Source: Haloplanus rubicundus
Lineage (GTDB): Archaea > Halobacteriota > Halobacteria > Halobacteriales > Haloferacaceae
DNA length: 64,000 nt
Direction: 5' to 3'
Assembly: GCF_003342675.1 (NCBI RefSeq)
Contig: NZ_CP031148.1
Coordinates: 1,178,001-1,242,000, forward strand
Shown here piece by piece: positions 34,746 to 59,729 of the stretch. The first letter of the stretch is position 1; each line of letters begins with the position of its first letter. The position numbers and the translations under genes were made by a program. The notes under the pieces are model-generated. The model was given only the letters and a program-made list of their open reading frames with translations, was not told where the DNA came from and did not search any database.

Positions 34746-35750
34746 CGCTCTTGTGGCGTAGATTGTTGGTGAGTCACAGCACAGTTTCGAGGATGGTTTT
34801 GAGTGCTTCCTCACCCGGTTTGCGGAACACTTCTCGGCGGAGCTGAAACGCTCGGAAATACGGTGTGAGTCTGTCTTTGGAGACGCCTCGATGCGGCGAG
34901 AGCCACCGTCGCGCCAGCGACGCGTGGCTCTCGCAGGTGTTCACGTGCACGTCTCCGTCAACGTACTCGCCGTCGCCGTGGACGACGTATTCACGAGTGA
35001 ATGCATCGTCCTCCTCTAGCGTGTTCGTACGCCCGAAAGCCGTCAGTATAGATGGTCAACGACTCCTGCTGGCGGTCCGCCAGCAGGAGTCGAATTTTCG
35101 ATTCGGTCGCGGCTTTCGCCGGGATCACGTACCGTTCACCACTGCCTCGATCTGCGAGAACAAAGACGGGGAGCTTGTCCTCAGCGTATGTTCCACGTCC
35201 GCGCGTGGATAGGCCACGCGAGCGCGACCAGCCGTCGCGCTCGCGGCCTTTGAGTCCAGCTTTCAGGTAGAACTCGTCGATCTCAATCGGGCCTTCAAGT
35301 TGTAGCCGAGGTGCGTCCAGCGCTCGCAGAAAGCGCTGGACGCGCCGGTAGATCGTCTTGTAAGAAACGTCGATCTCTACGTCTAACTGCCTGAGACTCG
35401 TGTTGAACCGGATGTACGTGTAGACCGCGAGGAACCATTTTCTGAGTGCCACCGCAGAGTGTTCGAACACCGTGCCTGTTTGATCGTTGAACGTGCGGTC
35501 GCAATCCTTACACAGATACCGCTGAAACACCCGATAGCTGCCGTACCGAATCACAGATTCGGCACGGCAGCGTGGGCAATAGACGCCGTCACGCCAGCGA
35601 ATCTGTGTCAGCAGATTCGCGGCCCGACGCTCCGAGACGAACGTCTTGATTGGGAACATCGTTCGTCGGGTGACGCGGTCGCGTCACCCTTGCCCGCTGT
35701 GACTTCCAGCTACTGCTGAGAACTGACCAACAATCCTCTACCCAAGAGCG
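34746..35750 (-). mobile_element. IS1595-family element with 9-bp target duplication
   Basis: TGATTGGTA flanks both ends (34737-34745 and 35751-35759). The ends are imperfect inverted repeats: CGCTCTTGTGGCGTAGATTG at the left and the complement of CGCTCTTGGGTAGAGGATTG at the right, both leading into TTGGT. Total 1005 bp. It lies about 100 bases upstream of the S-layer promoter. Confidence 0.88.
34774..35659 (-). pseudogene. IS1595-family transposase with one frameshift
   Basis: From 35659 the frame encodes a zinc-binding N-terminus (CPRCRAESVIRYG...CKDCDRTF), an HTH-like segment and the DDE domain: GPIEIDEFYLKAGLKGRERD, PVFVLADRGSGERYVIPA, LTIYTDGFRAYEHA. Near 34990 the true continuation is one frame over: LEEDDAFTREYVVHGDGEYV, then HVNTCESHASLARRWL and the stop at 34774. 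A single-base change in GAACACGCTAGAG accounts for it. The last catalytic residue (E in NTCES or nearby) lies after the shift, so this copy is probably dead, or uses frameshifting. Confidence 0.8.
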
Positions 35751-35996: not shown

Positions 35997-38597
35997 ATGA
36001 CAAACTCAACAAATAAATTGCGCAGCCTGTTCTTGGCCATGCTAATGGTCCTCTCAGTGGTGGGAGGATCCGTAGCATTCGCTGGGACAGCCGCTGCAAA
36101 TGCGCCCGATTCAGGGGCGTATGCCGCAGGAAACGCTCCTGGTGGGGATGCTACTCCCACTACGGACACAACGACGGGGTTGACAACAAAAATCGCTGAT
36201 GTTGGATTCCAGACCCCTGGTAATGTTACTCACGTTGAAGTTAATGCCAGCTATGGCAGCGATGCCAATGGCATTGACACGAGTGACATTGAGTCCGTGA
36301 GTGTCATCCTGCTGGATAACAACAACGGTACAGTCGCAGAGAGCGGTCAGGTAATCTACGACGAGGCACCAGTAAACGTCTCATTCGAAGGGACTGACGC
36401 AACAACCGGTGACGAGGTTGGTCGACTGCAGGTCCTTGCCAAGGTGAGTAGTAGTGCATCTGACGGAGATGCTATCGACGCAGGTGTGACCGTCACCGAC
36501 ACCGCGTCCGGCACGCAGTTCGAAGGAAACACTCCGTATGACACGGCTGGCAGTCAGACCGTTGTCATTTCGGACACCTTCGTTAGTGCCCAGGTCAAGC
36601 GAACTGGAGCCAACGGATCGACCGTTGAGGACGCTACTGTCCAGTTCGTGAATAACGATACTGGTACGATTATAGCTGAGCGCATTACCCAGTCCAGTGG
36701 CGCAACGTCGTCCGTCCGTGTCGCACCTGGTGTGAACATCCGCGCAGATGCCAACAAGGGCGGCTTCACGAAGTCCAGTTCACAGATTGCCTCCGTTCCA
36801 CGGGGAGAGTCACGTGAACTGGACGTGACGATCACTCCGGAAGGAGTTGCAAAGAATATCGAAATCATCGCAGCTGACCCGGCTAGCGAGTCTGCTATCG
36901 CCAACGGAACTGACCAGGTCACCTACTACGCGCAGGTGACTGGTCAGTTCGGTGAGCAGGAGGATCAGCCACTGGATGGCTTCGATGTCAGTTCAGCCGT
37001 CGAAAACGATCCCAACACAGGTAGTGTCACTCTCTCACCTGGTACGGATACTACGCAGGAAGTGACGCTTCCGGACGGCAGCACGGCTAACGGTACTGCC
37101 GTGTTTACTGTCTCCGACAGTGAAGCTGAGCAGGTGAATGTCAGCTTTACTGTTGATGACAACACGACGGTTCAGACCTTCGCTCAGCCGTCCTTCCGTA
37201 ATGAGCGTGGCGACGCGTACCTGCAGGGTGAAGTTATTGAGAACACCACTGGCTCTATAGTTGGGGGCGCAACGGTTTGGGCCGCCTACCCTGGCGAAAA
37301 CCAGACCCTTGCCTACGCGGAGCAGACCCAGCCATGGCTCGTTAGTGGTGTTAACTCTGAAGGGAAGTACGTCATCGAAGATATCGTAGCGGGTGATATC
37401 AACATCTACGCCGTTGCAGACGGCTATAACCGTCTGAATCGGACTGGTGACGATGTTGGCACCTACGTGGCTGCAGACGAAACGGAAACCGTCACCGCCG
37501 GCCAGACCGAGAACCACGACCTCACGCTTGAGGAAGGTGGCCCGACACAGGAATACCGGCTTGACGTGACGGTTGACGACGGCAATAAGACAGTCGAAGC
37601 TCCTGCAGGGACTGAGGTGACGGCAACGGTCACCGTTGAACAGCGCCCTGAGGGTAGCTCCGTGTCGTACAGTGATGCTGCAAACCAAGACATCACCGTT
37701 GAAACGACCGATAATCTCCCCTTGGAACCGGATAGCCAGAATGTCACCACGGACGCTAATGGTGAAGCACAGGTGACGTTCCAAGCGGAGAATTCTGGTG
37801 AGACGAACATCACTGCTTCGACTGAGAACAGTGATGGGGACGTCTACAACACGACCGGTAGCGAAGAGGCGACTGTCTCCGTCTTCTCGACGGCTGAAAT
37901 CACCGGTGACGTCGTGAACGAGGATGACGAAGAACTCGCCCGTGGCCAGGCTACGGTCGAACTGTTCATCCTCAATGAGACTAGCGAGTACGAATCGACT
38001 GGCCAAGTCTCTGAGATCGGATCCTCGGGCTCGTACGTGTTCACCAACGTTCGGTCTAATGAGCAGTACCGCATGATTGCCACGACCGACGCTGGCCTAG
38101 AAGGCCAGGCTACGACCGTCCCTAACATCCCGAGCGGGACGACAACCAACGACATCGTCGTCGTTGGTGCCGAACCGAGCCCGGCTGACTTCCAGGTCTC
38201 GAACCTCAACCCGCAGAACGTGACCGTTACGCAGGGTGACGAGATCACGGTCTCGGCAACGGTGACTAATAATGGCTCTGTCGACGACACGAAAGCGGTC
38301 GAATTCCGTGTCGGTAACAACGTCGTTGCGAGTCAGCAGGTCTCGCTGAACGTGAACGACAGCACGACCGTGACCTTCGAAAACGTCAGCACGTCGGCCC
38401 TCTCGGCTGGCACCTACACGCACGGTGTGTACACCGAGGACGACAGCCAGACGGCAACGCTGACCATCGAAAGCAGCGGTAACAACGGTGAAACGACCAT
38501 CACTGACGTCTTGAACGTCATCCAGGAGTACAACAACAACAACGCTGAGCTCGGTGAAGTCCTGGAAATCATCCAAGCCTACAACGAAAACAACTAA
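35997..38597 (+). CDS. S-layer-type surface protein ending in a short docking-like repeat
   Basis: 866 residues. The Sec signal MTNSTNKLRSLFLAMLMVLS...AFAGTAAA resembles those of haloarchaeal S-layer glycoproteins. Beta-rich domains follow: an N-terminal region (about 55-190), a Thr/Asn-rich region with many sequons, a carboxypeptidase-regulatory-like domain (about 400-510), an invasin-like big domain (about 520-625), another regulatory-like domain (about 630-720) and a CARDB-like domain (about 725-825). The last 35 residues are TITDVLNVIQEYNNNNAELG and EVLEIIQAYNENN, a shortened form of the module in the five secreted proteins. There is no PGF-CTERM anchor. It is the first gene of an operon, nine bases before the S-layer glycoprotein gene. 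Confidence 0.82.
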   Translation: MTNSTNKLRSLFLAMLMVLSVVGGSVAFAGTAAANAPDSGAYAAGNAPGGDATPTTDTTTGLTTKIADVGFQTPGNVTHVEVNASYGSDANGIDTSDIESVSVILLDNNNGTVAESGQVIYDEAPVNVSFEGTDATTGDEVGRLQVLAKVSSSASDGDAIDAGVTVTDTASGTQFEGNTPYDTAGSQTVVISDTFVSAQVKRTGANGSTVEDATVQFVNNDTGTIIAERITQSSGATSSVRVAPGVNIRADANKGGFTKSSSQIASVPRGESRELDVTITPEGVAKNIEIIAADPASESAIANGTDQVTYYAQVTGQFGEQEDQPLDGFDVSSAVENDPNTGSVTLSPGTDTTQEVTLPDGSTANGTAVFTVSDSEAEQVNVSFTVDDNTTVQTFAQPSFRNERGDAYLQGEVIENTTGSIVGGATVWAAYPGENQTLAYAEQTQPWLVSGVNSEGKYVIEDIVAGDINIYAVADGYNRLNRTGDDVGTYVAADETETVTAGQTENHDLTLEEGGPTQEYRLDVTVDDGNKTVEAPAGTEVTATVTVEQRPEGSSVSYSDAANQDITVETTDNLPLEPDSQNVTTDANGEAQVTFQAENSGETNITASTENSDGDVYNTTGSEEATVSVFSTAEITGDVVNEDDEELARGQATVELFILNETSEYESTGQVSEIGSSGSYVFTNVRSNEQYRMIATTDAGLEGQATTVPNIPSGTTTNDIVVVGAEPSPADFQVSNLNPQNVTVTQGDEITVSATVTNNGSVDDTKAVEFRVGNNVVASQQVSLNVNDSTTVTFENVSTSALSAGTYTHGVYTEDDSQTATLTIESSGNNGETTITDVLNVIQEYNNNNAELGEVLEIIQAYNENN

Positions 38598-38606: not shown

Positions 38607-41504
38607 ATGACAAATAAGAAACAATCAATCAGGGCGATCAGCCTGGCGGCGCTTATGGTGCTGTCAGTCTTCGCCATTCCGATGTCTGTAACGGCGGCGC
38701 CACAGCCCGCCCTGCAGACGACGTCTACCCCTGATACAGCACAGCAGGGCGAGACGTTCCAGATCACGTACGAATTCACGAATGACGGCGACGAAAACGG
38801 GACGGCTGGACTTGAATTCCAGCTCCCTGATGGCGTACAGGTCACGAACTACGATCCCGAAAGTCAGTTCGACGTCGAGGGCGCCTACGTCTTCGGCGAG
38901 GTCGCGCCTGGCGAGAGCCAGTCGGTGACCGTTACGTTCGAGGTCGCGGACGACGCGTCCACGGGCGATGCAACGGTGACCGCTGATGGTACGATCTCGG
39001 GGACGGACGACACCTCAACCGTTGACACGACCGTTACCATCGAAGAAGCCGATGGTGGCAACGGTGACAACGGAAACGGCGGCGTTGACCCCGACGATGA
39101 CAACCGCGCCGCGAACGAGGACGGGACGGGTGCCTTCAACACCGCCGACGGTGAAGGGTACTTCCTCCCCGATGCGACGCTCTTCCAGGGCGAATCCGAT
39201 GTCTTCCCCAGTGAGGATTTCGAGGGCGACCTGACGAAGTCGGCTGGTGACGCAGAAGGCGTCCCGCTCAACACGCCGAACATCCCGCAGAACCAGGAAA
39301 CTGGACGCTACGATGACGGTAGCGGAAACACCGTCACTGTCCAACAGCCGCGCGTCACGACGCTTGAGGTGCTCAACACCAACGGCAATGACATCGCTGG
39401 CGGCTCCGTCGCCGAAGGCGAGTCTGACTCGAGTGGTGCAGGTCAGCTCACGGTCGTTGGCGCCTGGAACTTCGAGAACGCCGAAAACCTCGAACTGACG
39501 GTCGAGGACGATTCCGGTCTCGACGTGACCGGTGACTCCGTTGATGACGCAGTCAAGACCAGTGCCGATACTGGGACGGACGTCAACGGTCAGTCGATCT
39601 CGCAGAACGAGGTCGGCTACGATGTCGACCTCTCGAACACCGGTACGGGAACGTACACGATTAGCCTCGCTGGCACGGACGACCTCGACTTCGGTGAGGC
39701 GTCCCAGTCCACGACCATCACCGTCACTGGTGACGACGACCCGAGCCTTAGCCTCGATTCGGACAGCGTCGTCCGCGGTGAGGACGTCCGCTTCGAGATT
39801 CAGGGTTCGGACGCTGGTGACGAGCACGTGGTCATCATCGAGGCTGACGACTTCCGCGATGGTGTCTCTAACGACAACGCCCAGCATATCTTCCGTAATG
39901 TTGGTGACACCAACGAAGTCGGTGTCGTGACCGACGGTGGCACCACCGTCGCGCCGCGTGGCACCCCGGTCAATGATGACATTGATTACGCGTACGCGAC
40001 CATCGAGGTCGACGACGACACGGGTGTCGGCGTCGGTCAGATCGAGACGCAGTACCTCGACGAGACGGACATCGATGTCTTCCTGTACGAGCAGAACTTC
40101 CCCGTTCCGTTCGATCAGGGCTCCACGGCAGCTGACGAGGCTGAAGTGGACGACGAGTCCCTCGAGGTTCAGGAAGGCGACCTCTCGATCGAATCGCCCG
40201 GTAACGCGTACGTTGTCGGCAGCGAAGTCGACGTCAACGGCACGGCGTCCGAGGGCATCGACGATGTTGCCTTCTTCGCCCGCCGTAACAACGACTACGA
40301 GATCGTCGAAATCGACGGCTCCAACACGCTGACCGTCGACGCCGACGGTACGTTCGAAGAGGAAGACGTCGTCCTCAGCGAAGGGGACGGCTCCGGGAAC
40401 GACATCATCTCGCTCCCCGGTACCTACCGCTTCGGTGTGGTTGACGTCGGCGGCCTCTCGGGCTCGCCCGAGACCAACGACGACTACAGCCTGTCGCCCT
40501 CGGAGTTCAACACGAACACGAGCACCCAGCAGTCGCTGCGGGTGACCGACACGGAACTGTCGGCGACGGTCAAGACCGTCGGCGGTCAGGTCTCGACCAC
40601 TGACGCGACGGTGAACATCTCGGGCAGCGCGTTCGGTGCTTCGAACGTCGATGTCCTGTTCATCGGCGACCGTGGTGGTACCTGGACCCAGGACATCTCG
40701 GTCGACGATGACAACACGTTCGAAGAGGACGACGTGTCCATCAGCGGTCTCGAGGATGGTCAGCGCGTCAGCGTCCACATCCTGATCCCCGGTCGTGACG
40801 GCGAATACGGCACGACTGGCGAGTCCGATATCGACGGCTACCTCGCCACCAAGAACTTCGAGACCTCCACGGGACAGCAGATCCGTGAGAACGTTGTCGC
40901 AGACACGATCGAGGAGACTGGAAGTGACGACCGCATGGTCACGGCGAACTTCCGGTACTCCGACGCGCAGACGCAGATCCAGACGGTCTACCCCGAAGGC
41001 ATGGAGGCCTCCGGTGTGAACCCGGTTGGCGTCGACGACACGATGGTCGTCGGAGGCTCGACCAACCTGCGTCCGGACGACAACTCGATCACTGTCGAAC
41101 TGATGACCGACGAGGGTGACTCGGTCGCCCTCGCGACCACCGACGAGTGGTCCTACGACGGCACGTGGTCGACGAGCCTCGAGCTGGAAGACGTCCAGAC
41201 GGGCACGTACGACCTCGAAGCCGACGACGGTGAGAACACGGACCTCGTTCAGGTAGAGATCGTCCAGAGCGTCCAGACGGCAACGCCGGAACCGACGGAG
41301 ACGCCGGAGCCGACGCCGACTGACACGCCGGAACCGACGCCGGAACCGACGCCGGAACCGACGCCGGAACCGACGCCGGAACCGACGGACACGGCAACGG
41401 CCACGCCGACGCCCACTGAGGGTGGCGGTCCTGGCTTCGGTGCCATCGTCGCCGTCATCGCGCTCATCGCGGCTGCGCTGCTGGCCGTCCGGCGCGACAA
41501 CTAA
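38607..41504 (+). CDS. csg: Major S-layer glycoprotein with PGF-CTERM tail
   Basis: 965 residues. Sec signal MTNKKQSIRAISLAALMVLS...SVTA. An N-terminal beta-sandwich (about 35-145, QQGETFQITYEFTNDGDENG) is followed by an S-layer body with FFARR, DQGSTAADEAE and GTYRFGVVDVGG type blocks of haloarchaeal surface glycoproteins. A TPEPTPEPTP linker near residues 893-930 is encoded by a 12-bp repeat. The end is GGGPGFGAIVAVIALIAAAL then RRDN, a PGF-CTERM signal that the archaeosortase ArtA cleaves to attach a lipid. It is cotranscribed with the preceding gene and precedes the AglB-like gene. Highly acidic, with several NxS/T sequons. Very likely the main cell-envelope protein. Confidence 0.92.
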   Translation: MTNKKQSIRAISLAALMVLSVFAIPMSVTAAPQPALQTTSTPDTAQQGETFQITYEFTNDGDENGTAGLEFQLPDGVQVTNYDPESQFDVEGAYVFGEVAPGESQSVTVTFEVADDASTGDATVTADGTISGTDDTSTVDTTVTIEEADGGNGDNGNGGVDPDDDNRAANEDGTGAFNTADGEGYFLPDATLFQGESDVFPSEDFEGDLTKSAGDAEGVPLNTPNIPQNQETGRYDDGSGNTVTVQQPRVTTLEVLNTNGNDIAGGSVAEGESDSSGAGQLTVVGAWNFENAENLELTVEDDSGLDVTGDSVDDAVKTSADTGTDVNGQSISQNEVGYDVDLSNTGTGTYTISLAGTDDLDFGEASQSTTITVTGDDDPSLSLDSDSVVRGEDVRFEIQGSDAGDEHVVIIEADDFRDGVSNDNAQHIFRNVGDTNEVGVVTDGGTTVAPRGTPVNDDIDYAYATIEVDDDTGVGVGQIETQYLDETDIDVFLYEQNFPVPFDQGSTAADEAEVDDESLEVQEGDLSIESPGNAYVVGSEVDVNGTASEGIDDVAFFARRNNDYEIVEIDGSNTLTVDADGTFEEEDVVLSEGDGSGNDIISLPGTYRFGVVDVGGLSGSPETNDDYSLSPSEFNTNTSTQQSLRVTDTELSATVKTVGGQVSTTDATVNISGSAFGASNVDVLFIGDRGGTWTQDISVDDDNTFEEDDVSISGLEDGQRVSVHILIPGRDGEYGTTGESDIDGYLATKNFETSTGQQIRENVVADTIEETGSDDRMVTANFRYSDAQTQIQTVYPEGMEASGVNPVGVDDTMVVGGSTNLRPDDNSITVELMTDEGDSVALATTDEWSYDGTWSTSLELEDVQTGTYDLEADDGENTDLVQVEIVQSVQTATPEPTETPEPTPTDTPEPTPEPTPEPTPEPTPEPTDTATATPTPTEGGGPGFGAIVAVIALIAAALLAVRRDN
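41318..41390 (+). repeat. 12-bp tandem repeat encoding TPEP linker
   Basis: The unit CCGGAACCGACG occurs about five times in a row with earlier imperfect copies from 41286. Each unit adds TPEP to the linker next to the membrane anchor. Since the unit is a multiple of three, copy-number changes alter linker length without breaking the frame. Confidence 0.8.
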
Positions 41505-41707
41505 ACGACTGAATCACGACTGACCGCCGAAAGCGGTCACCCGATGCGGATTCTTTTATCGGCGCTACTCATCAGCGCTAGAGACATCGACTACCACCTA
41601 GTTTCGACGATCACCGGCACAGTCGTTGTTTTAGCCAGAATATCCACGTGATATCCAACGGGACAGATGCCGCGGGTTTTATGCGTTCGTTCATCTGTCG
41701 TGAAGAC

Positions 41708-44095
41708 ATGGCTGGCGTACGAGAGGCGACAGACTCATTTTTAACTGATTATCCCGAGTCTGAGGAAGCACTCCAGTCTATCCTTGAGCTTGATCGAGAA
41801 GGTGCGTGGACATTCGACGAGATTCCACTTGACTCGGGGCGGTTCGGAGAACTTGTTTCTCGCGGCATCGCTGAGCAAGTCCCTGAGGGATATCGTCTTG
41901 CTGATCAGCAGGCGGTCAAAGCGGCACTTACTGGCGAGCCACAGGTGGTTGCTGATTCAAGCGACTCGCGCCGCCCGCAGATCGCACTGCCTACGAGCGC
42001 TACGGTTGACTCTCGAGTTGTGGGGGCTATCTTGGGTAGTCTGTTCGTGGTCGTCGTGTTGCGGCTCCTTGCCTATCCGCAGGTCTTCCGCAACGGCGAT
42101 GTTGTGCTTCTGGGAAACGATCCGTACTACTACCGCTATTGGGTCGAACACCTCTTGACCCAATCGAGTGGGATCAATGAGCTACAGGTGCTCTCATCGC
42201 TGCCGGATTTGGTCAGCAGGGGTGAACCGCTGCTGGTGGCGACACTCTGGATCCTCGCGACGCTTCTCGGTGGCGACGCTGGGGCTGCGGGGCTTGTTCT
42301 GGCGTGGTATCCCGTTCTCTCAGCACTAGTTGTGGGACTGGTTATCTATCTTCTTGGCAGCCACTTGTTTGCGGATCGACGCGTTGGGCTGGCTGCCGTC
42401 ATCATGCTTGCCTTGATTCCGGCGCATGCGTTTCGAACTAGCCTCGGGTATGCCGATCATCATGCATTCGACTATGTTTGGCTGGCACTGACAATGGCTG
42501 CGCTGGTGGTTCTTTCCGACTTGGAGACGCTCCGTGACTGGCGGCCGTGGGTGGCTGCTAGTGGACTCGGAATTGCCATTGCCGGGCAGACACTTGCGTG
42601 GGAAGCGGGGCCACTCCTCTTACTTCCCGTTGGCATCTACCTCGTGGGCCAGTCGTTATCTGCACTCCGGACTGAGAGCTCCCCACTTCGTTCTGGTGGC
42701 CCGCTATTGATCGGGCTTGGTGTTGGTGCGCTTCTCACGCATGTGGCACATCAGGTATTCACCTGGCACACCCCTGTGGTAGCGTACGCTCCGTTTCTCT
42801 TGCTTCTAGGGTGTCTTGCTGTCCTCGTGGCGACCGAACTCGCCTCCCGAACTGGTTTGGCGCCGAAATATCTTGCTGGTATTGAATTTATCGGGCTCGT
42901 CGCGGGGGCCGTCATTCTCCCCCGTGTGTTGCCTGCTGTTGCGACTGGGCTTGATCGTGGTGTTGACTTCCTGCTTCAGACTGAAGGTATCGCCGAGACA
43001 ACGTCGATCTTGAGTGGCCAACTCGGCTCGATTTTTGGCCCCGCGTTGCTCTTCGGCTGGACATTATTCCTCGCGCTTCCGTATCTGTGTTGGTTGAGTC
43101 TCCGCGCGTATCGCCAGCATACGCCAACAGTACTCATCCCCGTTATCTATGGCTGGTTTTTCCTACTGTTAGCGATCGTACAGCTTCGCTTTGCCGGTGA
43201 ATTAGCCATCCCAATCGCCCTGTTTGCTGGGTTGGGATTCGTCCATCTTACATCGTGGTTGGATATCTCAGACGAGGTGGCGTATCTTTCTTCTGACGCA
43301 GACTCATCGTCACCACCAGCAACGAATCCCCAAGCTCAGTCTTCGACACACTCGTTTGTGCCCACAATGCCGGACCGGCAAACAGCGTTTGCGCTGTTTG
43401 GTGCCTTCCTTCTCGTTGGGAGTATGAGCTTCATCATGGTCCCAATCAAAACGAATCAGCTTACCATCCCGGACGATCAGTACCAGGCAGCGACGTGGAT
43501 GGACGAGTATGCAGACCAGCAAGGCTGGGAGTATCCCGACAATTACGTCTTCAGCCCGTGGGGGCGGAACCGCGTCTATAACTACTTCGTCAATGGTGAG
43601 TCCCGGTCCTATAGCTACGCCCAATCGAATTATGGGGCGTTTATCACCGCCACGGATGGTGACGCCTGGTATACGCGGCTCCGCGATCGGGTTGGGTTTA
43701 TCGTCACACAGGATCCGCTTCAGGAGGATACGACCTTTGCTGCGCAGTCACTCCAGACCCGTCTTCATACCCAGTATGGGAGTGGTAGCGCTGCAGCCCC
43801 AGGCCTCGCCCACTATCGCGCGGTCTATGTGAGTCCGGATGGCTCGGTGAAGGTCTTCACGCTGGTGCCTGGCGCCCGACTGGTCGGCACTGCACCACCG
43901 AATTCCGACGTGTCGATTTCTACAACGCAGTCGGTTAACGGCCATCAGTTCACCTACTCCAGAACCGTGGAGGCGACGGCCGGCGGGCGCTATGCAGTCA
44001 CCGTCCCGTATGCCGGCACCTATACCGTCAATGGCAATCGAGTCGACGTCTCGACGACCGCTATCAGGCAGAACGAGACGGTTTCTGTCTCTTGA
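41708..44095 (+). CDS. aglB: AglB/STT3-like oligosaccharyltransferase, WWDYG absent
   Basis: About 795 residues from ATG 41708 (MAGVREATDSFLTDYPE); a GTG at 41648 and an ATG at 41681 are alternatives. A soluble N-terminal segment of about 100 residues, unusual for AglB, precedes about 11-13 hydrophobic segments starting at VVGAILGSLFVVVVLRLLAY. The first external loop has GNDPYYYRYWVEH, the place of the STT3 catalytic DxD-like motif, and YADHHAFDYVW matches the second STT3 motif. In the C-terminal soluble domain the WWDYG sequon-binding motif is replaced by YVFSPWGRNRVYNYFVNGES. A beta domain closes the protein (TTQSVNGHQFTYSRTVEATA). STT3 enzymes move a lipid-linked glycan to Asn of NxS/T. 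Its position after the S-layer genes fits that role, but the altered motif leaves activity open. Confidence 0.75.
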   Translation: MAGVREATDSFLTDYPESEEALQSILELDREGAWTFDEIPLDSGRFGELVSRGIAEQVPEGYRLADQQAVKAALTGEPQVVADSSDSRRPQIALPTSATVDSRVVGAILGSLFVVVVLRLLAYPQVFRNGDVVLLGNDPYYYRYWVEHLLTQSSGINELQVLSSLPDLVSRGEPLLVATLWILATLLGGDAGAAGLVLAWYPVLSALVVGLVIYLLGSHLFADRRVGLAAVIMLALIPAHAFRTSLGYADHHAFDYVWLALTMAALVVLSDLETLRDWRPWVAASGLGIAIAGQTLAWEAGPLLLLPVGIYLVGQSLSALRTESSPLRSGGPLLIGLGVGALLTHVAHQVFTWHTPVVAYAPFLLLLGCLAVLVATELASRTGLAPKYLAGIEFIGLVAGAVILPRVLPAVATGLDRGVDFLLQTEGIAETTSILSGQLGSIFGPALLFGWTLFLALPYLCWLSLRAYRQHTPTVLIPVIYGWFFLLLAIVQLRFAGELAIPIALFAGLGFVHLTSWLDISDEVAYLSSDADSSSPPATNPQAQSSTHSFVPTMPDRQTAFALFGAFLLVGSMSFIMVPIKTNQLTIPDDQYQAATWMDEYADQQGWEYPDNYVFSPWGRNRVYNYFVNGESRSYSYAQSNYGAFITATDGDAWYTRLRDRVGFIVTQDPLQEDTTFAAQSLQTRLHTQYGSGSAAAPGLAHYRAVYVSPDGSVKVFTLVPGARLVGTAPPNSDVSISTTQSVNGHQFTYSRTVEATAGGRYAVTVPYAGTYTVNGNRVDVSTTAIRQNETVSVS

Positions 44096-44214
44096 TCGCC
44101 TAGTTAGGTTCCTGGCACCCGGTAGGCGCAGACTAGGGCGACACGACAGTGTGTTCAACATTCAGCATGCGTATATGTCTCAAAATTAATATTCTCATAT
44201 CTGCGAGACTATCT

Positions 44215-44772
44215 ATGACCGACGACCGCCCCGATGAGGTGACCGAGCGCGTCACTGAGGAGTGGAAAACGGAGACAAATCCTGGCGAGCGCGTTCGCAC
44301 CGTCATGAAGCGGACGTATGAGCCACAGACAGTCGCCACCATTGCCGAGCGGGCACTCACGTCGGAGCCAACTGCCCGCAAGCATCTGGATATTCTCGCC
44401 GATGACGGCTTTGTCGACGCCGTCTCTCCGCCGGACGAGCGCGGGACGTGGTACAGACGCGCCCCTCAATCGGTCGTCCTCGAACGCGCCCAGCAGATCC
44501 TCGACTCGATCGACAGTGAGACGCTGTCGACCCGTGTCACGGAGCTTCGCGAGGTTGTTCGCGAGTTCGAGGCACAGACCGGAGCCGAATCCCCACGCGC
44601 CGCGGCTATCGCTGACACAGAGCTAGATGCGGCGGCGATGACAGAGTGGCAGACGGCGCGTCGAAACTTGAAGCTCGCGCGAGCCGCTCTTGCGCTCGCA
44701 GACGCAACCGAGGCCGTTGGGGACGATACTGGATCGGACGAACGCAGCGAACCAGCCGGCTTCATCGGCTGA
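44215..44772 (+). CDS. Winged-helix regulator, DUF7342-like
   Basis: 185 residues using ATG 44215 (MTDDRPDEVTERVTEEWKTE). Residues about 25-85 form a winged helix: TVMKRTYEPQTVATIAERAL, TSEPTARKHLDILADDGFVD with wing DERGTWYRRAP. The remainder is helical and probably coiled (ARAALALADATEAVGDD). The N-terminus with EEW before the HTH is typical of the haloarchaeal DUF7342 group, close to ArsR/IclR-like regulators. Target unknown; it follows the aglB-like gene by 119 bases and may be independent. Confidence 0.75.
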   Translation: MTDDRPDEVTERVTEEWKTETNPGERVRTVMKRTYEPQTVATIAERALTSEPTARKHLDILADDGFVDAVSPPDERGTWYRRAPQSVVLERAQQILDSIDSETLSTRVTELREVVREFEAQTGAESPRAAAIADTELDAAAMTEWQTARRNLKLARAALALADATEAVGDDTGSDERSEPAGFIG

Positions 44773-44912: not shown

Positions 44913-46350
44913 GGAGAGAATCCCGCCCTTTAGGGCGGGAGTGAATCCGACACTTCCTACACAAACCACCGTCGATTGCAGGCTGGATATTCAACGCTAA
45001 TCCGTAGCATTAAGTAAGTTCATCGACATAGGCTATGTATGGCGATTCAGGTCACGCGCACCTACGTTGGTTCCATCCAGAACCAGCAACAGGTCTGCGA
45101 CGGCCTTGACTCGCTCGGAGACTCCGCCTCGAAAATTTGGAACGTCGCACGATGGACAGCAGACCGGATTTGGGACGAAACCGGTGAGATCCCCAACGAA
45201 GGCCCGCTCAAATCGTACATGAAGAACCAGTCGTGCTGGAAAGACTTGAACGCACAATCCAGTCAGAAAGTCATCGAAGAACTTTCCGACGCTTTCCAGT
45301 CATGGTTCGACCTGCGACACAAAGACAACAAGGCGAATCCGCCCGGCTACCGCAAACACGGCGACAAACGACCACGTAGTACGGTCACGTTCAAAGCAGA
45401 CGGGTTCAAACACGACCCCGAGAACAACCGCGTCCGACTCTCAAAAGGCTCGAACCTCAAAGAACACTTCTCGGACTTCCTGCTCTGCGAGTACCAGACA
45501 CGCCCCGACGTAGACCTCTCGAAAATCAACAAGGTACAGAACGTTCGCACTGTCTGGAATGGTGAGGAGTGGGAACTGCACTTTGTCTGCAAAGTCAACC
45601 TCGAAACGAACGACTCCGCAGGCGACGATGTTGCTGGTATCGACCTTGGCATCAAGAACATCGCCACGGTCGCCTTTCCCGACGAATACGTTCTCTACCC
45701 CGGCAACTCGATCAAGCAAGACAAGCACTACTTCAAACGTGCTGAGTACGATACAGAGGGGGAGAACGGGCCATCTGAGAAATCTGGATGGGCGCGTCGG
45801 AAACTTGCAGACCGCGAGACGCACTTCTACCACACGCTGACGGACACCATCATCACCGAGTGTGTCGAACGCGGTGTGGGCACGCTTGCAGTGAGTTGGC
45901 CCGAAGACGTGCGTGAGTCGGATTGGGGCAAGACCGGCAACAAGAAACTCCATACGTGGGCGTTCGACCGCATCTACCAGTACCTCGAATACAAAGGCGA
46001 GATACGAGGCGTCGAGGTACTGAAGGAGAACGAGCGGAATACATCGAAGACCTGCTCAAAGTGTGGTGACGACACGAAATCGAACCGTGTTGAGCGTGGC
46101 TTGTACGTTTGCCAGTCGTGTGGTTTGGTCGGAAACGCGGATTGCAACGGGGCGGAGAATATGAGGCAAAAGATAACTCCGAGTCCTCACGGCGAGGATA
46201 GGAGTAACGGCTGTGTGGCACAGCCATCGGCATACTTGTTCGACCGCGAGAGCGGGACGTTTCACACGAGAGAACAGGTCGTGTCGTAAACCAGCAAATA
46301 TCCCACCTGCGGTACGGGAAGCCCCGTCGTTTACGACGGGGAGGATGTCA
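44913..46350 (+). mobile_element. IS1341-type element
   Basis: Left end near 44915-44950 (GAATCCCGCCCTTTAGGGCG GGAGTGAATCC in two blocks) and right end near 46318-46347 (CCCCGTCGTTTACGACGGGG). tnpB only. Sister of the element nested at 29742-31186. It inserted between the regulator and uppP. Confidence 0.85.
45039..46289 (+). CDS. tnpB: TnpB-like protein, RuvC-II Glu replaced by Ser
   Basis: 416 residues, [19 protein letters not shown]. Motifs in order: [60 protein letters not shown] (first Asp), [20 protein letters not shown] (Ser at the Glu position), [20 protein letters not shown] (zinc ribbon) and [16 protein letters not shown] (third Asp). No frameshift or stop. The presence of two near-identical full-length copies in the window shows that the altered RuvC-II form is maintained during spread. 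The canonical TnpB chemistry would need another carboxylate. Confidence 0.88.
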   Translation: MAIQVTRTYVGSIQNQQQVCDGLDSLGDSASKIWNVARWTADRIWDETGEIPNEGPLKSYMKNQSCWKDLNAQSSQKVIEELSDAFQSWFDLRHKDNKANPPGYRKHGDKRPRSTVTFKADGFKHDPENNRVRLSKGSNLKEHFSDFLLCEYQTRPDVDLSKINKVQNVRTVWNGEEWELHFVCKVNLETNDSAGDDVAGIDLGIKNIATVAFPDEYVLYPGNSIKQDKHYFKRAEYDTEGENGPSEKSGWARRKLADRETHFYHTLTDTIITECVERGVGTLAVSWPEDVRESDWGKTGNKKLHTWAFDRIYQYLEYKGEIRGVEVLKENERNTSKTCSKCGDDTKSNRVERGLYVCQSCGLVGNADCNGAENMRQKITPSPHGEDRSNGCVAQPSAYLFDRESGTFHTREQVVS

Positions 46351-46368
46351 CAGTCGCTTTCTCCCTGT

Positions 46369-47181
46369 ATGGATCGGTCGCTGTTGATCGCGATTGTCGT
46401 TGGTGCTCTCCAGGGGCTTTTTGAGTGGTTGCCGATTTCAAGTGAGGGCAACGTTACAATTGCGCTTGCGTGGCTGGGAACGAATCCCGAGCAGGCCGTC
46501 GCCTTTGCACTGTTTTTGCACCTGGGGACCGCGCTCTCGGCGACGGCGTATTACCGCGATGATATCCAAGAAGAATTGGCTGTCCTTCGAACCTGGCGGC
46601 CACGGTGTGCGAGGGAGGCTGGCTACGCCACGACAACCTTCCTCGGCATCGCAACCCTTGTCTCCGGTGTTGTCGGCATTGCCGCGTACCTGCTGCTTGA
46701 ACAGGTCGTGTCGGCGCTGACGGGTGGGGCCGTCATCCTCGTTATCGGCATCCTCCTCATTCTTACTGGGGGTTTCCAGCGTCTCTCAACAACCGTCGAT
46801 CGCACACCCCGAACGACACCGACGCTGTGGGATGCTGTTCTGGTCGGCGTTGCGCAGGGCCTTGCGATTTTGCCCGGGATTTCACGCTCCGGTTCGACCA
46901 CCGGTGTCCTTTTACTCCGTGGCTATGAGGGTCCAGCCTCGTTTCGACTTTCCTTTCTGCTCTCGATCCCCGCTGCGATCGGGGGCGGACTCTTAGCCGC
47001 ACTTGATACCGGGCTCGCGGGCATTACTCTTGTCAGTGGTGCAGTGGCGCTCCTGACGGCTGCTGTGGTGGGGTATCTGACGATCGATGTGTTGATGCGT
47101 GTCGTCCATCGGGTTCCGTTCTGGGGCGTCTGCGTCGGGCTGGGTGGGCTTGCCGTCGGTGGTGGTCTGCTCTTGCTCTAA
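46369..47181 (+). CDS. uppP: Undecaprenyl/polyprenyl-diphosphatase UppP
   Basis: 270 residues from ATG 46369 (MDRSLLIAIVVGALQGLFEW), 19 bases after the right end of the IS. The UppP/BacA signature motifs are EWLPISSEGN (residues about 19-28, bacterial EFLPISSTGH) and LPGISRSGST (about 160-170). About eight membrane segments. UppP removes the terminal phosphate of the C55-type carrier pyrophosphate; in archaea it would recycle the polyprenyl or dolichyl carrier used for glycan assembly. This fits the neighbouring AglB-like gene and sugar transferase. The TnpB element upstream may have displaced its native promoter. Confidence 0.9.
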   Translation: MDRSLLIAIVVGALQGLFEWLPISSEGNVTIALAWLGTNPEQAVAFALFLHLGTALSATAYYRDDIQEELAVLRTWRPRCAREAGYATTTFLGIATLVSGVVGIAAYLLLEQVVSALTGGAVILVIGILLILTGGFQRLSTTVDRTPRTTPTLWDAVLVGVAQGLAILPGISRSGSTTGVLLLRGYEGPASFRLSFLLSIPAAIGGGLLAALDTGLAGITLVSGAVALLTAAVVGYLTIDVLMRVVHRVPFWGVCVGLGGLAVGGGLLLL

Positions 47182-47290: not shown

Positions 47291-47728
47291 TTAGGTGCCG
47301 TCTTCGCGGAACCTGAGTAAGTCAATATCCACGACTAAGTCATCAAAATCATCGTCTGCGCCCACAACCAATGTCAGTTCACGTTCGTAGGCGAGTGCAA
47401 CGGCGTACGCATCAGCAAGACAAATGTTTCCATCGGCTTTTATCTCGGCTGCGAGACGCCAGTCAGCGGCTTCTATTTCCAGGCCTTGCTGTTCGAGCGC
47501 ACGAATATCACGGTCTGCTTCCCGAAGCGAGATTTCTGTCGGTGAATCATTCAATCCTTCGAATCGAGCAACGAGATAGAATACCTCGCTTGCATTCGTC
47601 TCGGTCAGAACTCCGTCAGCACCACCAGTGAATACTTGATCGAGAAGGGTAGCCACGCTCTCGTGGCCGGGTTCAGTGTAGAGGAAGGCGATGATCGCCT
47701 CAGTGTCGAAGACGTATCCGCCACTCAT
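47291..47728 (-). CDS. vapC: VapC-type PIN-domain toxin
   Basis: 145 residues, MSGGYVFDTEAIIAFLYTEP. PIN-domain acidic residues: Asp in FDTEAIIAF (residue 8), Glu in TNASEVFYL (about 47), Asp in CLADAYAVALA (about 103) and the ADDDF cluster (about 120-124). VapC toxins are Mg-dependent RNases, usually acting on tRNA or rRNA. The start codon overlaps the end of the upstream antitoxin gene by 4 bases. All four catalytic acidic positions are present, so it may be active. Confidence 0.88.
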   Translation of the reverse strand: MSGGYVFDTEAIIAFLYTEPGHESVATLLDQVFTGGADGVLTETNASEVFYLVARFEGLNDSPTEISLREADRDIRALEQQGLEIEAADWRLAAEIKADGNICLADAYAVALAYERELTLVVGADDDFDDLVVDIDLLRFREDGT

Positions 47729-48021
47729 CCGTTCTCGGAGGGGCGAAGCCGTTCAACTCGCGCCTCTTCCCGGCGCTTTTCTTCATCCCTCGTTTTTTGT
47801 ACTCGTTCCAGCACCTCTCCGCACTCATGCTCACCAGCGTGGATTCCGTGCAGTTCATCTGGAGACGGAACCGGCTCGATGATGATGCGACCCTGCTCTT
47901 CGTAGACGAATACCTCGCCCGGCGCCTTGATCCCAAACTTCTCCCGTAGTTCCTTTGGGATCGTGGCTTGTCCCTTCTGAGACACACGTACTACTCTTTG
48001 ATCTTTTGTACTACCTGACAT
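47725..48021 (-). CDS. vapB: VapB-type AbrB/MazE antitoxin
   Basis: 98 residues, MSGSTKDQRVVRVSQKGQAT. Residues about 10-52 form a swapped-hairpin AbrB domain (VSQKGQATIPKELREKFGIK, GEVFVYEEQGRIIIEPV). The C-terminal tail is charged and helical (VLERVQKTRDEEKRREEARV) and would block the toxin. The AbrB domain normally represses its own operon. TATA-like sequence TATCTATAAAATT lies directly upstream at 48028-48040 on the plus strand. Confidence 0.87.
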   Translation of the reverse strand: MSGSTKDQRVVRVSQKGQATIPKELREKFGIKAPGEVFVYEEQGRIIIEPVPSPDELHGIHAGEHECGEVLERVQKTRDEEKRREEARVERLRPSENG

Positions 48022-48204: not shown

Positions 48205-49650
48205 TCCCCGAGTCAGTGACCCACGACTGAAGTCGTGGGCTTGTCAGTGGACTCCCCTTCTGCCGTCGAATCGACGGAGGCGGTGTAATCGCCATTCAGG
48301 TTCAGCGTCCCTGACGTTAGCGCACACTGACAGGGTGCGCCTCCACCCGAAGACTTCTGCCCCGAGTGGAGTTTCTTGAGAAGTTTGCGAGCGATGTTCT
48401 TGCTCGCGTTGTAATCCGCGTTCAGTTCGTACTCACACTTCTGACACACGAACTGGTGTTTCGACCGCCGATTGTCCTCGTGCGTAAATCCACACGACGA
48501 ACACCGTTGAGACGTGTACGCAGGACTCACTTGCTCAACCTCGATGCCGTACATCTCGGCTTTGTACTCGACGTACTGGAACAAGCGTCTGAACGCCCAC
48601 GCGTGGAACCGCTTCGCCCCAACCATCCGGTCACGAATATCGGTCAGGTTCTCGAACGTGATATGCGTACAGTCGTGGTCGCGGGCTTCATCGAGAATCC
48701 GGTTCGCGGTACGGTGGAGTTCGTATTGCATCCAGCGGTGTTCGCGGTCGTTCATCGATTGAATCGACAGGTGCGCCGACCGCGTTCCTGCCTGTTGCAT
48801 CGACCCGCGAGTCTTCTCGAACTCTCGGCGTCGGTAGTTCATCTCATCGGCGTTCCCAATAAACGCGCCTGTGGAAGTCACAGCGAGCGAGCCATCCACG
48901 TTCAGGTCAACACCAAGGACTGTTCTGTGCTTGGCGTCGGACGAGGAAGTCGTGGATTGCTCTTGTTGATCCGTGGTTCGGCGCATCCGAGCGTGGAGGT
49001 AGAACGATTCTGTTTGGCGGTCGTACTGTAACGTGGACATTCTGAACTCGTAGTCCTCGTTCAGCAGGTACTCACCAATCGGTGTCCTCTCTGCGTCGTC
49101 GGGAAGCACGTAGTCGCACTCAACCCGACCGTTCACTGTGGAAAGGGAAACGTGGTCGCGGTGGAACGTCGCACTCCGTTTGTCGTAGACGACGCTCCAC
49201 GCATCGAACTGCGGTTGACTCGTGTTCTCTCTTTTTTTGAGTCGGGCGACACCGCTTTTTGTGGCCTCGATAGCGCGTCGAATCCCTTTCTGGACGAGGT
49301 TTGCAGTCAACTCCGTCTCGTTGCGAAGGCTATCGTAGAGGGCTTGTTCGGCTTTTTGTTTCGAGGTTACACAGTAGTCGTTCGGGTGTCTCCACGCCCA
49401 CTCTGCGGTGGTGTTCGCACAGTGGAGGAACTGTTGTTTCGTCTGATGGAGGTCGTCGCACCGCTCTTCGGGTACGTCAAGTTTGACTTTGACGGTGCGA
49501 ATCACGTCCTCCATCCGTATTTCACATATCGGATTGACTCTTTATATAATCTACGACTGGGGTAGGGGAGTCGGGGTACTATCGCTCGTAGTTGTTTCGA
49601 GCCTTGTCGGATTCCTCCCACGGCTTCAGCCGTGGGCTTCCTCCTCGATT
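48205..49650 (-). mobile_element. IS1341-type element with intact TnpB
   Basis: Right-end palindrome at 48218-48240 (CCCACGACTGAAGTCGTGGG) overlaps the end of tnpB. Left-end palindrome at 49616-49636 (CCCACGGCTTCAGCCGTGGG). It sits against a truncated copy of glmU (49661-49880), so the insertion marks the end of that copy. A solitary copy of its right end is at 28736. Confidence 0.85.
48213..49514 (-). CDS. tnpB: TnpB RNA-guided nuclease, canonical active site
   Basis: 433 residues, MEDVIRTVKVKLDVPEERCD. N-terminal region with TTAEWAWRHPNDYCVTSKQK and NLVQKGIRRAIEATKSG; RuvC-I TVLGVDLNVDGSLAVTS (Asp); RuvC-II CTHITFENLTDIRDRMVGAK (Glu); zinc ribbon CSSCGFTHEDNRRSKHQFVC; RuvC-III NADYNASKNIARK (Asp). 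All three carboxylates are present and the frame is open, so it is a plausible active nuclease. The C-terminal codons overlap the right-end palindrome, where the omega RNA would end and the guide begin. Confidence 0.9.
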   Translation of the reverse strand: MEDVIRTVKVKLDVPEERCDDLHQTKQQFLHCANTTAEWAWRHPNDYCVTSKQKAEQALYDSLRNETELTANLVQKGIRRAIEATKSGVARLKKRENTSQPQFDAWSVVYDKRSATFHRDHVSLSTVNGRVECDYVLPDDAERTPIGEYLLNEDYEFRMSTLQYDRQTESFYLHARMRRTTDQQEQSTTSSSDAKHRTVLGVDLNVDGSLAVTSTGAFIGNADEMNYRRREFEKTRGSMQQAGTRSAHLSIQSMNDREHRWMQYELHRTANRILDEARDHDCTHITFENLTDIRDRMVGAKRFHAWAFRRLFQYVEYKAEMYGIEVEQVSPAYTSQRCSSCGFTHEDNRRSKHQFVCQKCEYELNADYNASKNIARKLLKKLHSGQKSSGGGAPCQCALTSGTLNLNGDYTASVDSTAEGESTDKPTTSVVGH

Positions 49651-49654
49651 CTGT

Positions 49655-49974
49655 GTGAGTGATTTGCTATCGTAGAGATTGTCGCCATTCAAGACGGCAA
49701 ATGGAGCCTCCTCAAGTGCTGTGGCGCCTGCCCGGACGGCATCTGCCGTCCCGCGTTGATGGTCCTGGACCGCGTAGTCGACAGGAACGCCCTTGAATTC
49801 CTGTCCGAAGAACGAGCGGACGGCGTCGGCCTCGTAGCCAACGACAAGGACCAATCGTGAGGCGCCAGCGCCGAGATAGCGCAGCCATCGAGGAACGAGC
49901 GGAATCGGGAGTGTGCGTACCGTATCTCGTGTCGATAGCATGATCAACACCCTCCTGAGCTTTTTGCTTCCCAA
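49655..49974 (-). pseudogene. Truncated duplicate of a GlmU-like nucleotidyltransferase
   Basis: The frame reads GAGASRLVLVVGYEADAVRS then FFGQEFKGVPVDYAVQDHQR and FAVLNGDNLYDSKSL, nearly identical to the intact gene at 50026-51222 (AGASRLVLVVGYEADAVRAF...). It lacks the start (LAAGxGTRM) and everything after SKSL, where the IS left end begins. About 72 residues of homology. Partial duplication followed by IS insertion. Confidence 0.8.
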
Positions 49975-50025: not shown

Positions 50026-51222
50026 TCAACGGCGATTCGCTGCGGATTTGAGGATCGTTTCGTTGGGTGCGGTCGTAGCCCCGCCTGGAAGAACCACCCC
50101 AGCGTTTAGACTCGTATTAATCCCGGTTTTCACGCCATCACCACAGACCACACCGAACTTGCGCCGGCCCGTCGACACCAGCTCGCCTTTGACCGGGCAG
50201 GTGATTGGTGCTTCATCGTGTCGGAGATTGGCGACGGTCGTTCCGGCCCCGAAATTCACGTTACGGCCAAGGATGCTATCGCCAACATACGAGAGATGCC
50301 CCACTGTCGCCCCCTCCATGAGCACGCTATTTTTCACCTCGACTGAATGGCCGACTGTCGTCTTGGGGCCAAGCAGCGTTGCCCCACGAACGTAGGCGTT
50401 CGGGCCGACCGTCGCCCCCGCTTGCAGTAGGGCTGGCCCCTCGATTACGACGCCCGCCTCAACCGTCGCCCCCGATTCGACGATCACAGGACCCCGTAGC
50501 TCGGCGTCGGCGTGCACTTCGCCATTGATCTGCCGGGAACACTCCTCGAGTTTCCACTCGTTTGCTTCAAGTAGCTCCCACGGCCGGCCCACATCGAGCC
50601 AGCGACTCAGTGGTACCGCCGTCACCGCGGTTTCCTGGCAGGCCTGATTGAGCACCTCGGTCACTTCGAGTTCGCCACGCTCGCTACTGTCGACGTCGAG
50701 CCAGTCTTGGGCTGCCGTCGGGAAGACATACCCACCGGTATTGATCACGTTTGAGGGCGGCGTGTCGGGTTTCTCGATGACGCTGGTGACCTGCTCGCCC
50801 TCGATATCGAGGACGCCGTAGGCACTTGGTGACGCCACCTGATAGGAGCCCACACTCGGCCCGCGGTCAAACAGCTTGGCGAGTGACTCACCATCGTAGA
50901 GGTTGTCGCCATTCAGGACGGCAAATGGGGCCTCTTCGAGTTTGGTGGCGCCCGCCCGGACGGCATCTGCCGTCCCGCGCTGTTGGTCCTGGACAGCGTA
51001 GTCAACTGGGACGCCCTTGAATTCACTCCCAAAGAAGGCCCGCACGGCGTCGGCCTCGTAGCCAACGACAAGCACCAACCGCGACGCTCCAGCGTCGATG
51101 GCTGCCGTGGCCGTGTGCGCAACTAATGGCTGCCCGGCGACTGGCAACATTGGTTTCGGCCGCTGCTCGGTCAGCGGGCGCATGCGAGTGCCCTGCCCGG
51201 CTGCAAGAATGAGGGTCTGCAT
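50026..51222 (-). CDS. glmU: Bifunctional sugar-1-phosphate nucleotidyltransferase / acetyltransferase (GlmU-like)
   Basis: 398 residues from the ATG complementary to 51220-51222. The N-terminal Rossmann-type domain has LILAAGQGTRMRPLTEQRPK (nucleotide-binding loop), FAVLNGDNLYD (metal-binding Asp) and VIEKPDTPPSNVINTGGYVF. The C-terminal half is a left-handed beta helix with hexapeptide repeats (GATVEAGVVIEGPALLQAGA, TTVGHSVEVKNSVLMEGATV) and GDGVKTGINTSLNAGV. In archaea such enzymes make UDP-GlcNAc or dTDP-sugars from the 1-phosphate. It diverges from the glmM pseudogene, whose start is 128 bases away, so the two probably share a control region. Confidence 0.88.
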   Translation of the reverse strand: MQTLILAAGQGTRMRPLTEQRPKPMLPVAGQPLVAHTATAAIDAGASRLVLVVGYEADAVRAFFGSEFKGVPVDYAVQDQQRGTADAVRAGATKLEEAPFAVLNGDNLYDGESLAKLFDRGPSVGSYQVASPSAYGVLDIEGEQVTSVIEKPDTPPSNVINTGGYVFPTAAQDWLDVDSSERGELEVTEVLNQACQETAVTAVPLSRWLDVGRPWELLEANEWKLEECSRQINGEVHADAELRGPVIVESGATVEAGVVIEGPALLQAGATVGPNAYVRGATLLGPKTTVGHSVEVKNSVLMEGATVGHLSYVGDSILGRNVNFGAGTTVANLRHDEAPITCPVKGELVSTGRRKFGVVCGDGVKTGINTSLNAGVVLPGGATTAPNETILKSAANRR

Positions 51223-51796
51223 GGTCCGGATCACGGTCGTGGGTCCCAAGTCAATACCGGAACTGCGTCTCGATACAACCGAGTCCGCGTGCCAGACGGC
51301 TCCCGGCAGCAACCCAAGAACAATGTAGCAACCCATCGGAACGCAGGGTATGTTTGGGACCAGTGGGATTCGCGGGCCGATCGGCGAGACAGTCACTGCG
51401 GGGACGGCCCTGTCGGTCGGGCGCGCGCTCGCCTCAGAGGGCTATTCGACAGTCGTCGTTGGCCGCGATCCACGCGAGAGCGGGCGGATGCTTGCGAACG
51501 CGCTGTGCAGCGGGCTGACCGAATGCGGCGCCGACGTGATCCAGCTTGGCTAAGCCGCGACGCCGACCGTTGCCCGGAGTGTCAGCTGGCACGACGCGGC
51601 GACTGGCGTCTCGATTACGGCCTCGCACAACCCACCCACCGATAATGGATTCAAATTGTGGACGCCGTCTGGGCAGGCGTTCGGCCCGGACCAACGAGAG
51701 CGGGTCGCTGCCCGTATCGAGGCGGGTGATTACGACTTTGCGGCGTGGGATGAGTTGGGAGCAACGGTCCAGTACGATCGGGCCAGTGACGATCAT

Positions 51797-53225: not shown

Positions 53226-54177
53226 ACATGCAGGCACTGTGTGCCGCGATCGATACCCCGCTTGAGCTGTCTGTGATCGTTGATTTGGGGACCGGTGCCG
53301 GGCGCGTGACGGTGGAGACGCTACTCGAACTCGGCTGTGGCGTCGAGACACTCAACGCCCAACCCGATGGTCGGTTCCCGGGCCGGCCGAGCGAACCAAC
53401 GGCCGACAACTGCACGACGCTTTGCCAGACCGTCGCCCATACCGATGCCGATCTCGGCATTGCCCATGATGGCGATGCTGATCGGATGCTCGCCGTGGAT
53501 GAAACTGAGGCCTTTGTGTCCGGAGATGTGCTCTTAGCGCTGTTTGCTCGGCAGGCAGCTGTGCCCGGTGACCGTGTCGCTGCGCCCGTCGATACGAGCC
53601 TGCTCGTCGACGACACGCTGGCCACACAGGACAGCACCGTCACGCGGACGAAAGTCGGCGATGTCTATGTTGCTGAGCGGGCGGCCGACGACGACGTTGT
53701 CTTTGGTGGTGAGCCCAGCGGGGCGTGGATCTGGCCGGCCGAGACGCTCTGTCCGGATGGCTCTCTGGCGGCGTGTAAACTCGCTGCGCTCGTGGCCACC
53801 GAAGGGCCGCTTTCGACTCTCATGGAGGATATTGAGACGTATCCGATCCGCCGGCAGAATATCGAGGTGACTGCGAAGGCCGACTGCATGGCCGTCATCG
53901 AAGAACTCGTCGCGGAGCGATACGATGCCAGCGCGATTGAGACGCTTGATGGCGTCCGAATTGAGACAAAGGCGGGCTGGCTGCTGATTCGAGCTAGCGG
54001 CACGCAACCACTCATTCGACTGACTGCGGAAGCACGCACGGAGGCTCGGGCTGAGACACTCCTTGCCGAGGCCGAGGAGTTGGTCGCGGCTGCGCAGGGA
54101 TCCTAATTGTGTCTCATGATGGCATGGGCGCCCTTGGTTCATAGCCTTTAACGTAATTCCCACACAGTATTTCTGTG

Positions 54178-59725: not shown

Positions 59726-59729
59726 GCGA

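Follow-up and report, generated by a model that had tools for sequence, protein, structure and literature searches.

What does an oligosaccharyltransferase-like protein do when it lacks WWDYG? In AfAglB this motif and the DK/MI motif together form the pocket for the acceptor's +2 Ser/Thr (PMC8342417; PMC3703281), and the question is raised by a gene at 41,708–44,095 (+) of the window, the 64,000-nucleotide stretch of the Haloplanus rubicundus genome analyzed here, which encodes a WWDYG-less protein of the STT3 fold (the variant). The open reading frame (41,648–44,095, +) gives 815 amino acids from a GTG or 795 from the ATG at 41,708; the Met at 41,708 is kept in at least 58 of 60 aligned homologs, so the first-pass annotation was right to start the gene there. 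It had also read GNDPYYYRYW and ADHHAFDY in the membrane part, and these lie at amino acids 156–165 and 269–276 in the numbering of the 815-amino-acid frame; the extra N-terminal domain that it described is real, comprises about 76 conserved residues and is present in nearly all homologs. The gene indeed lies behind S-layer genes, as had been remarked, starting 204 bp downstream of an S-layer glycoprotein gene of the HVO_2072/Csg family with PGF-CTERM (38,607–41,504, +; TIGR04216, 741.9 bits; 40% identical to Halobacterium Csg), which is preceded by the gene of a surface glycoprotein with a halo_sig_pep signal (35,997–38,597, +; TIGR04207). Directly behind the variant is a DUF7342 winged-helix regulator (44,149–44,772), and a similar-looking one lies near the Halobacterium phosphoglycosyl transferase gene discussed below (L135:4,970–5,509). 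An IS1595 transposase gene (34,991–35,659) lies just upstream of the S-layer genes, and TnpB-like genes of a single cluster are found at 2,778–4,094, 6,151–7,410, 29,802–31,211, 45,039–46,289, 48,213–49,514, and 51,919–53,178; we read these as marks of a rearranging glycosylation island. A PIN-domain-like toxin and its small upstream partner at 47,291–48,021 (−) are, by eye, a probable toxin-antitoxin pair.

Profile searches place the protein near AglB at some distance: the Pfam STT3 match is weak (28.9 bits), TIGR04154 (archaeo_STT3, the archaeosortase-associated AglB) scores 189.8 bits, below its curated cut-off of 450, and a PHROGs search gave no match, while the AglB_L1 peripheral domain is recognized at 43,871–44,026 (+) (PF18079, 33.5 bits, cut-off 23.6). 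An AlphaFold2 model built from an alignment of 39 members (mean pLDDT 89.8, pTM 0.83) has A. fulgidus AglB as its best Foldseek match in the PDB (7E9S; E 4.6e-23, probability 1.00, TM 0.65), followed by eukaryotic STT3, PglB, and DPY19, and the model of the Halobacterium ortholog (pLDDT 91.2) likewise finds AglB first (TM 0.70) and STT3 second. Against 29 canonical haloarchaeal AglBs the family aligns by hhalign with E 1.2e-35, and the alignment brings GND, DHH, the TIXE Glu, and QxRF into correspondence. The variant thus shares with the GT66 enzymes AglB, STT3, and PglB (Archaeoglobus AglB-L, PDB 7E9S and 5GMY) the fold, both DXD motifs, the TIXE Glu, the QxRF Arg, and the AglB_L1 domain, and differs from them in lacking WWDYG, in its extra N-terminal domain, in forming a separate clade, and in its coupling to a phosphoglycosyl transferase.

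The residues expected of a catalyst are retained throughout the family. In the first DXD motif (G-N-D; 42,113–42,121, +) Asn157-Asp158 are invariant among 60 members, Asp158 being the equivalent of AfAglB Asp47; the second (D-H-H; 42,455–42,463, +) corresponds to the AfAglB Asp161/His163 region and has D or E at 270 followed by an invariant His271. In a subgroup of 16, most of them Natrialbaceae, this motif reads E-H-R rather than D-H-H. Glu450 of the EL5 TIXE motif (G-I-A-E; 42,986–42,997, +), the equivalent of AfAglB Glu360 (PMC8342417), is present in 59 of 60 and aligns with the Glu of canonical TISE, the first residues of this TIXE/SVSE motif being variable, and Arg514 of QLRF (43,181–43,192, +), in the AfAglB Arg426 region, is also found in 59 of 60. 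In AfAglB the corresponding residues are responsible for metal binding and for activating the acceptor's amide (PMC8342417; PMC3703281). WWDYG, on the other hand, is absent from all 60 aligned members, and neither the variant nor any homolog listed contains WWD[YW]G, so that the absence first noted in one protein extends to the family. In canonical AglB, WWDYG lies after the last membrane helix and before the C-terminal P1 domain. The variant has SPWGRNRVYNYFVNGES (amino acids 636–652) there, with SPWGRNRVYN (43,553–43,582, +) replacing WWDYG; the common family form is [ST]-x-W-G-x-N-R-x-Y-N-Y, with Trp638 and Asn645 invariant, Arg642 in 59 of 60, and P637 and R640 variable. Where WWDYG has its first Trp and its Tyr the family varies freely, and where it has Asp most members have Gly. 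It appears, then, that the family keeps the chemistry and has lost the known reader of +2.

How securely is that reader gone? By fold and local topology we looked for a counterpart of WWDYG elsewhere in the protein, and the elements of the core follow in the expected order (a W-M-[DE] helix, [DE]YP, a V-x-S strand, the motif, and a helix). At the residue level the hhalign alignment of variant and canonical AglB around WWDYG is not significant, no DK/MI motif is recognizable on a kinked helix in a region that profile comparison could not align, and the statement that the +2 pocket is gone therefore rests on topology. An alternative register in the full-length hhalign alignment, which equates YVFSPW with the later YVMVDW strand, was rejected as a gap artefact. 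On sequence and model the variant looks like an oligosaccharyltransferase in every tested respect but acceptor reading, and since it lacks WWDYG it ought not to be classed as AglB.

Scanning one genome per species gave 57 full-length homologs at 34–47% identity, all titled haloarchaeal; the 59 loci include two fragments, one from a metagenomic bin labelled Bacteroidetes. No member outside class Halobacteria was seen, the matches listed from 375 genomes of the phylum all falling within the window's order. In the phylogeny that the first-pass annotation had proposed the variant splits from canonical AglB with SH-aLRT 100, and the two Halobacterium proteins fall one in each group. The family is thus a new clade of the STT3 superfamily, one so far unrecognised in the openly accessible literature covered. 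The genome search that the first-pass annotation had also proposed found one canonical, WWDYG-bearing AglB in H. rubicundus (C2:2,781,135–2,784,044) beside three variant members, namely the window's gene, C2:1,279,566 (702 amino acids, without the N-terminal domain), and C2:1,451,569 (784 amino acids). Among 391 haloarchaeal genomes, canonical AglB is present in 384 and the variant in 220, or 216 after removal of four weak matches (E above 1e-40) ahead of the stratified test described below. The variant nearly always resides with canonical AglB and is therefore an additional enzyme; it is an extra paralog and not "the AglB" of H. rubicundus.

Its commonest neighbor is a PF02397 phosphoglycosyl transferase (PGT), found by neighbor clustering at 38 of 60 loci (at 24 of them no more than 1 kb away, and at 32 in the same orientation). 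The window's PGT lies at 54,175–55,599 (+) (PF02397, 195.8 bits; TIGR03025, 272.8 bits), and this genome has only two PGTs, each close to a different one of the variant genes (about 11 kb and 1.5 kb away). The variant is gained and lost along with the PGT. Across the 391 genomes a PGT occurs in 241, comprising 203 of the 216 with the variant and 38 of the 175 without it; with stratification by genus the association persists (CMH chi-square 130, p ~4e-30), and in mixed genera it is almost one-to-one, counts for both, variant only, PGT only, and neither being 5/0/0/4 in the window's genus and 23/0/2/21 in genus g2. The 38 genomes with a PGT and no variant indicate that PGTs serve further pathways too. 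A BacA/UppP-type polyprenyl-diphosphate phosphatase is also encoded in the window (46,369–47,181, +; PF02673, 171.7 bits; start placed by inference inside the frame 46,213–47,181), and in two genera BacA is encoded by 7 of 8 genomes that carry both variant and PGT as against 0 of 14 others (Fisher 5e-5). BacA as a universal partner was rejected because Halobacterium G018 has none, and recycling there should need another enzyme. PGTs make polyprenol-diphosphate sugars, and canonical haloarchaeal AglB uses dolichol monophosphate; release of a diphosphate carrier should call for a BacA-type phosphatase, and DolP-dependent AglB releases no such carrier. The coupling to a PGT, and in two genera to a phosphatase, thus points to a dolichol-diphosphate (DolPP) donor for the variant, unlike the monophosphate used by canonical AglB.

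Genes for sugar supply lie nearby: a GlmU-like sugar-1-phosphate nucleotidylyltransferase/acetyltransferase (50,026–51,396, −; TIGR03992, 509.6 bits), a GlmS-like glutamine amidotransferase/SIS protein (57,923–59,785, −; PF01380/PF13522), and a second GlmU-like nucleotidylyltransferase (59,730–60,935, −; PF00483). A GlmU-like fragment (49,579–49,974) beside the TnpB-like gene at 48,213–49,514 looks like an insertion-broken duplicate of 50,026–51,396, and a phosphomannomutase/phosphoglucomutase frame (53,216–54,106) directly behind the TnpB-like gene at 51,919–53,178 has domains II–IV only and is probably truncated. A DUF4330 protein gene (56,293–57,684, −) has counterparts near the variant in about 10 loci, and its small partner (55,838–56,290, −) in about five.

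The acceptor is best approached through Halobacterium, for which the evidence comes from genome G018, the laboratory strains R1 and NRC-1 being outside the searched set. Its bacteriorhodopsin is 100% identical over 249 residues to that of Hbt. salinarum, and G018 is probably Hbt. salinarum. Here the variant (C1:932,302–934,614) lies 3 kb from the S-layer gene and 5 kb from the sole PGT (C1:939,809–940,342), in the order csg, a CARDB-domain secreted protein, an FtsX-type permease, variant, GlmS, two GlmU-like genes, and PGT, with csg, variant, GlmS, both GlmU genes and the PGT within about 14 kb; the window holds the same set (S-layer, variant, BacA, GlmU, PGT, GlmS, GlmU). In Hbt. salinarum, Asn-2 of Csg carries a repeating pentasaccharide linked through GalNAc, which is DolPP-derived and bacitracin-sensitive and whose attachment survives replacement of Ser-4 by Val, Leu or Asn, and a single oligosaccharyltransferase had been found there (PMC2952790; PMC8674786); a 2013 review (PMC3871713) and a 2019 paper (PMC6591318) allow that a further, not yet identified transferase may exist. 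This system is known biochemically only, no gene being tied to it in the accessible literature, and it resembles what the variant predicts: a DolPP donor as expected from the PGT, a GalNAc-type linking sugar that fits GlmS/GlmU, no requirement for a +2 Ser, and genes near csg. The G018 Csg itself begins (A)NADQ and so is naturally N-A-D, with no Ser at +2. In the Halobacterium genome G067, C1:214,034–214,499 holds fragments like the N-terminal part of a second variant between two S-layer genes. The low-salt Asn-498 pathway of Haloferax volcanii (Agl5–Agl15) is likewise AglB-independent with its transferase not identified, but it uses DolP; the variant was rejected for this role, and does not explain Asn-498, because the 15 genomes of genus g7, inferred to be Haloferax, have neither variant nor PGT.

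Do other S-layer proteins offer such an acceptor? In TIGR04216 proteins an Asn among the two residues that follow the signal Ala run occurs in 15 of 27 variant genomes and 2 of 18 without the variant (p 0.004), and within genera g2 and g27 together it occurs in 9 of 9 with the variant and 0 of 6 without; as the rule was drawn up once the first batch had been seen, and the genomes are related, not independent, the association is suggestive only, with the second, hypothesis-driven batch alone giving p 0.004. Of the 20 such Asn residues in variant genomes, 15 have no Ser/Thr at +2 (the +2 residues being Arg 7, Gly 4, Ser 4, Asp 3, Val 1, Thr 1). Roughly half of the S-layer proteins from variant genomes lack the position-2 Asn, among them the window's 38,607–41,504 protein directly upstream of the variant; the predicted mature start of 35,997–38,597, with the cleavage site inferred by comparison with Csg, is (A)NAPDSG, in which the position-2 Asn is not part of a sequon. 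A neighboring S-layer gene is common in part of the family only and recurs in some genera; an S-layer neighborhood conserved family-wide found no support, a Csg-type gene lying within 8 kb only in the window and at 1 of 57 database loci (L056). The variant probably acts on the N-terminal Asn of surface glycoproteins, and judged from gene content and context it is a strong candidate, the best available, for the Halobacterium Asn-2 transferase.

The first-pass annotation had left it that either the acceptor or the reaction may differ. We favor altered acceptor recognition together with a diphosphate donor, as suggested by the family-wide loss of WWDYG with catalytic residues kept, the PGT and (in two genera) BacA, and the gene's place near the S-layer gene of an organism with a +2-independent, DolPP-dependent N-glycan. 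With moderate confidence, then, the variant may be a second, dedicated DolPP-dependent oligosaccharyltransferase with altered +2 recognition and a probable N-terminal Asn acceptor. The reaction, donor, acceptor, and docking that we infer would run as follows. The PGT at 54,175–55,599 would load the first sugar phosphate, probably an N-acetylhexosamine from the linked GlmS/GlmU genes, onto dolichol phosphate; the dolichol-diphosphate glycan would then be extended and flipped, and the variant, with its AglB-like metal site and amide-activating Asp158/Glu450, would pass it to asparagine. With the WWD pocket gone no Ser/Thr should be needed at +2, the acceptor would probably be an asparagine at the extreme N-terminus of surface glycoproteins, like Asn-2 of Hbt. 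salinarum Csg, and a BacA-type phosphatase, where present, would recycle dolichol diphosphate.

The N-terminal domain (41,714–41,941, +; about 76 amino acids, cytosolic) is shared, by HMM, with the N-terminus of haloarchaeal EMC3/TMCO1 (YidC-like) insertases. Its HMM matches the N-termini of Halobacterium EMC3-family proteins (PF01956) with E 1e-9 to 2e-13 in a four-protein test set, and the same insertases with E 1e-12 to 4e-8 in whole-genome searches. One such insertase with a homologous N-terminal domain is encoded at L136:1,409–2,278; haloarchaeal EMC3/YidC-like insertases are encoded between adk and cmk, and Halobacterium has two. By this likeness the domain may dock the variant at the export site, perhaps on the translocation machinery, where it would meet the newly exported N-terminus early.

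Two other readings are each improbable but deserve weight. The variant could be a second DolPP-glycan oligosaccharyltransferase that still reads N-X-S/T, its pocket rebuilt from W638, R642, and N645; these are near-invariant, W638 matches the second Trp of WWDYG by local context, and the window's 35,997–38,597 protein holds 23 N-X-S/T sites. However, every member has lost the two WWD residues that contact the +2 hydroxyl in PglB/AglB, the first Trp and the Asp, and tolerance of Ser-4 loss at Csg Asn-2 and the natural N-A-D of G018 argue against this pocket. Equally unlikely is a non-Asn acceptor for the DolPP-linked glycan, whether another residue, a lipid, or a growing exopolysaccharide. DPY19, which transfers to Trp, is the precedent here, an STT3-like fold without WWDYG among the structural neighbors, and the PGT resembles the exopolysaccharide initiators TIGR03025/WcaJ, with sugar epimerases, GT4 enzymes, and flippases nearby. 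Yet AglB is the closest fold by many orders of magnitude (DPY19 matches with E 9e-8 and is not the closest fold), the amide-activating Asp158/Glu450 pair is retained, and the S-layer linkage is seen again in distant families. DPY19 also differs from the variant in its donor, Dol-P-Man, and in the EL5 Glu, which the variant keeps. That the variant has no catalytic activity and serves to regulate or chaperone glycosylation, as the loss of the best-known oligosaccharyltransferase motif might suggest, is very unlikely given metal and catalytic residues kept in 60 members as diverse as 34–47% identity and coupling to a donor-making enzyme of its own. Least credible is a divergent AglB in the canonical role in H. 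rubicundus, a reading its STT3/AglB_L1 domains would allow and which the coexistence of canonical AglB here and class-wide, with the separate clade, has already largely refuted.

Halobacterium Csg was the first archaeal, and the first non-eukaryotic, N-glycoprotein, and the Asn-2 transferase is still missing in papers from 2010 to 2021; the family offers a concrete, genetically testable candidate with a donor-making partner. More tentatively, and with less confidence than in a second DolPP-dependent enzyme as such, its members may be widespread sequon-independent N-oligosaccharyltransferases that modify the N-terminal Asn of exported surface proteins with DolPP glycans from a dedicated PGT, are docked on the export machinery by an insertase-type domain, and include the missing Csg Asn-2 enzyme. 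If so, the WWDYG-based sequon rule would not be universal among STT3-type enzymes, surveys for N-X-S/T would overlook these sites, and haloarchaea would run two parallel N-glycosylation systems with different lipid carriers.
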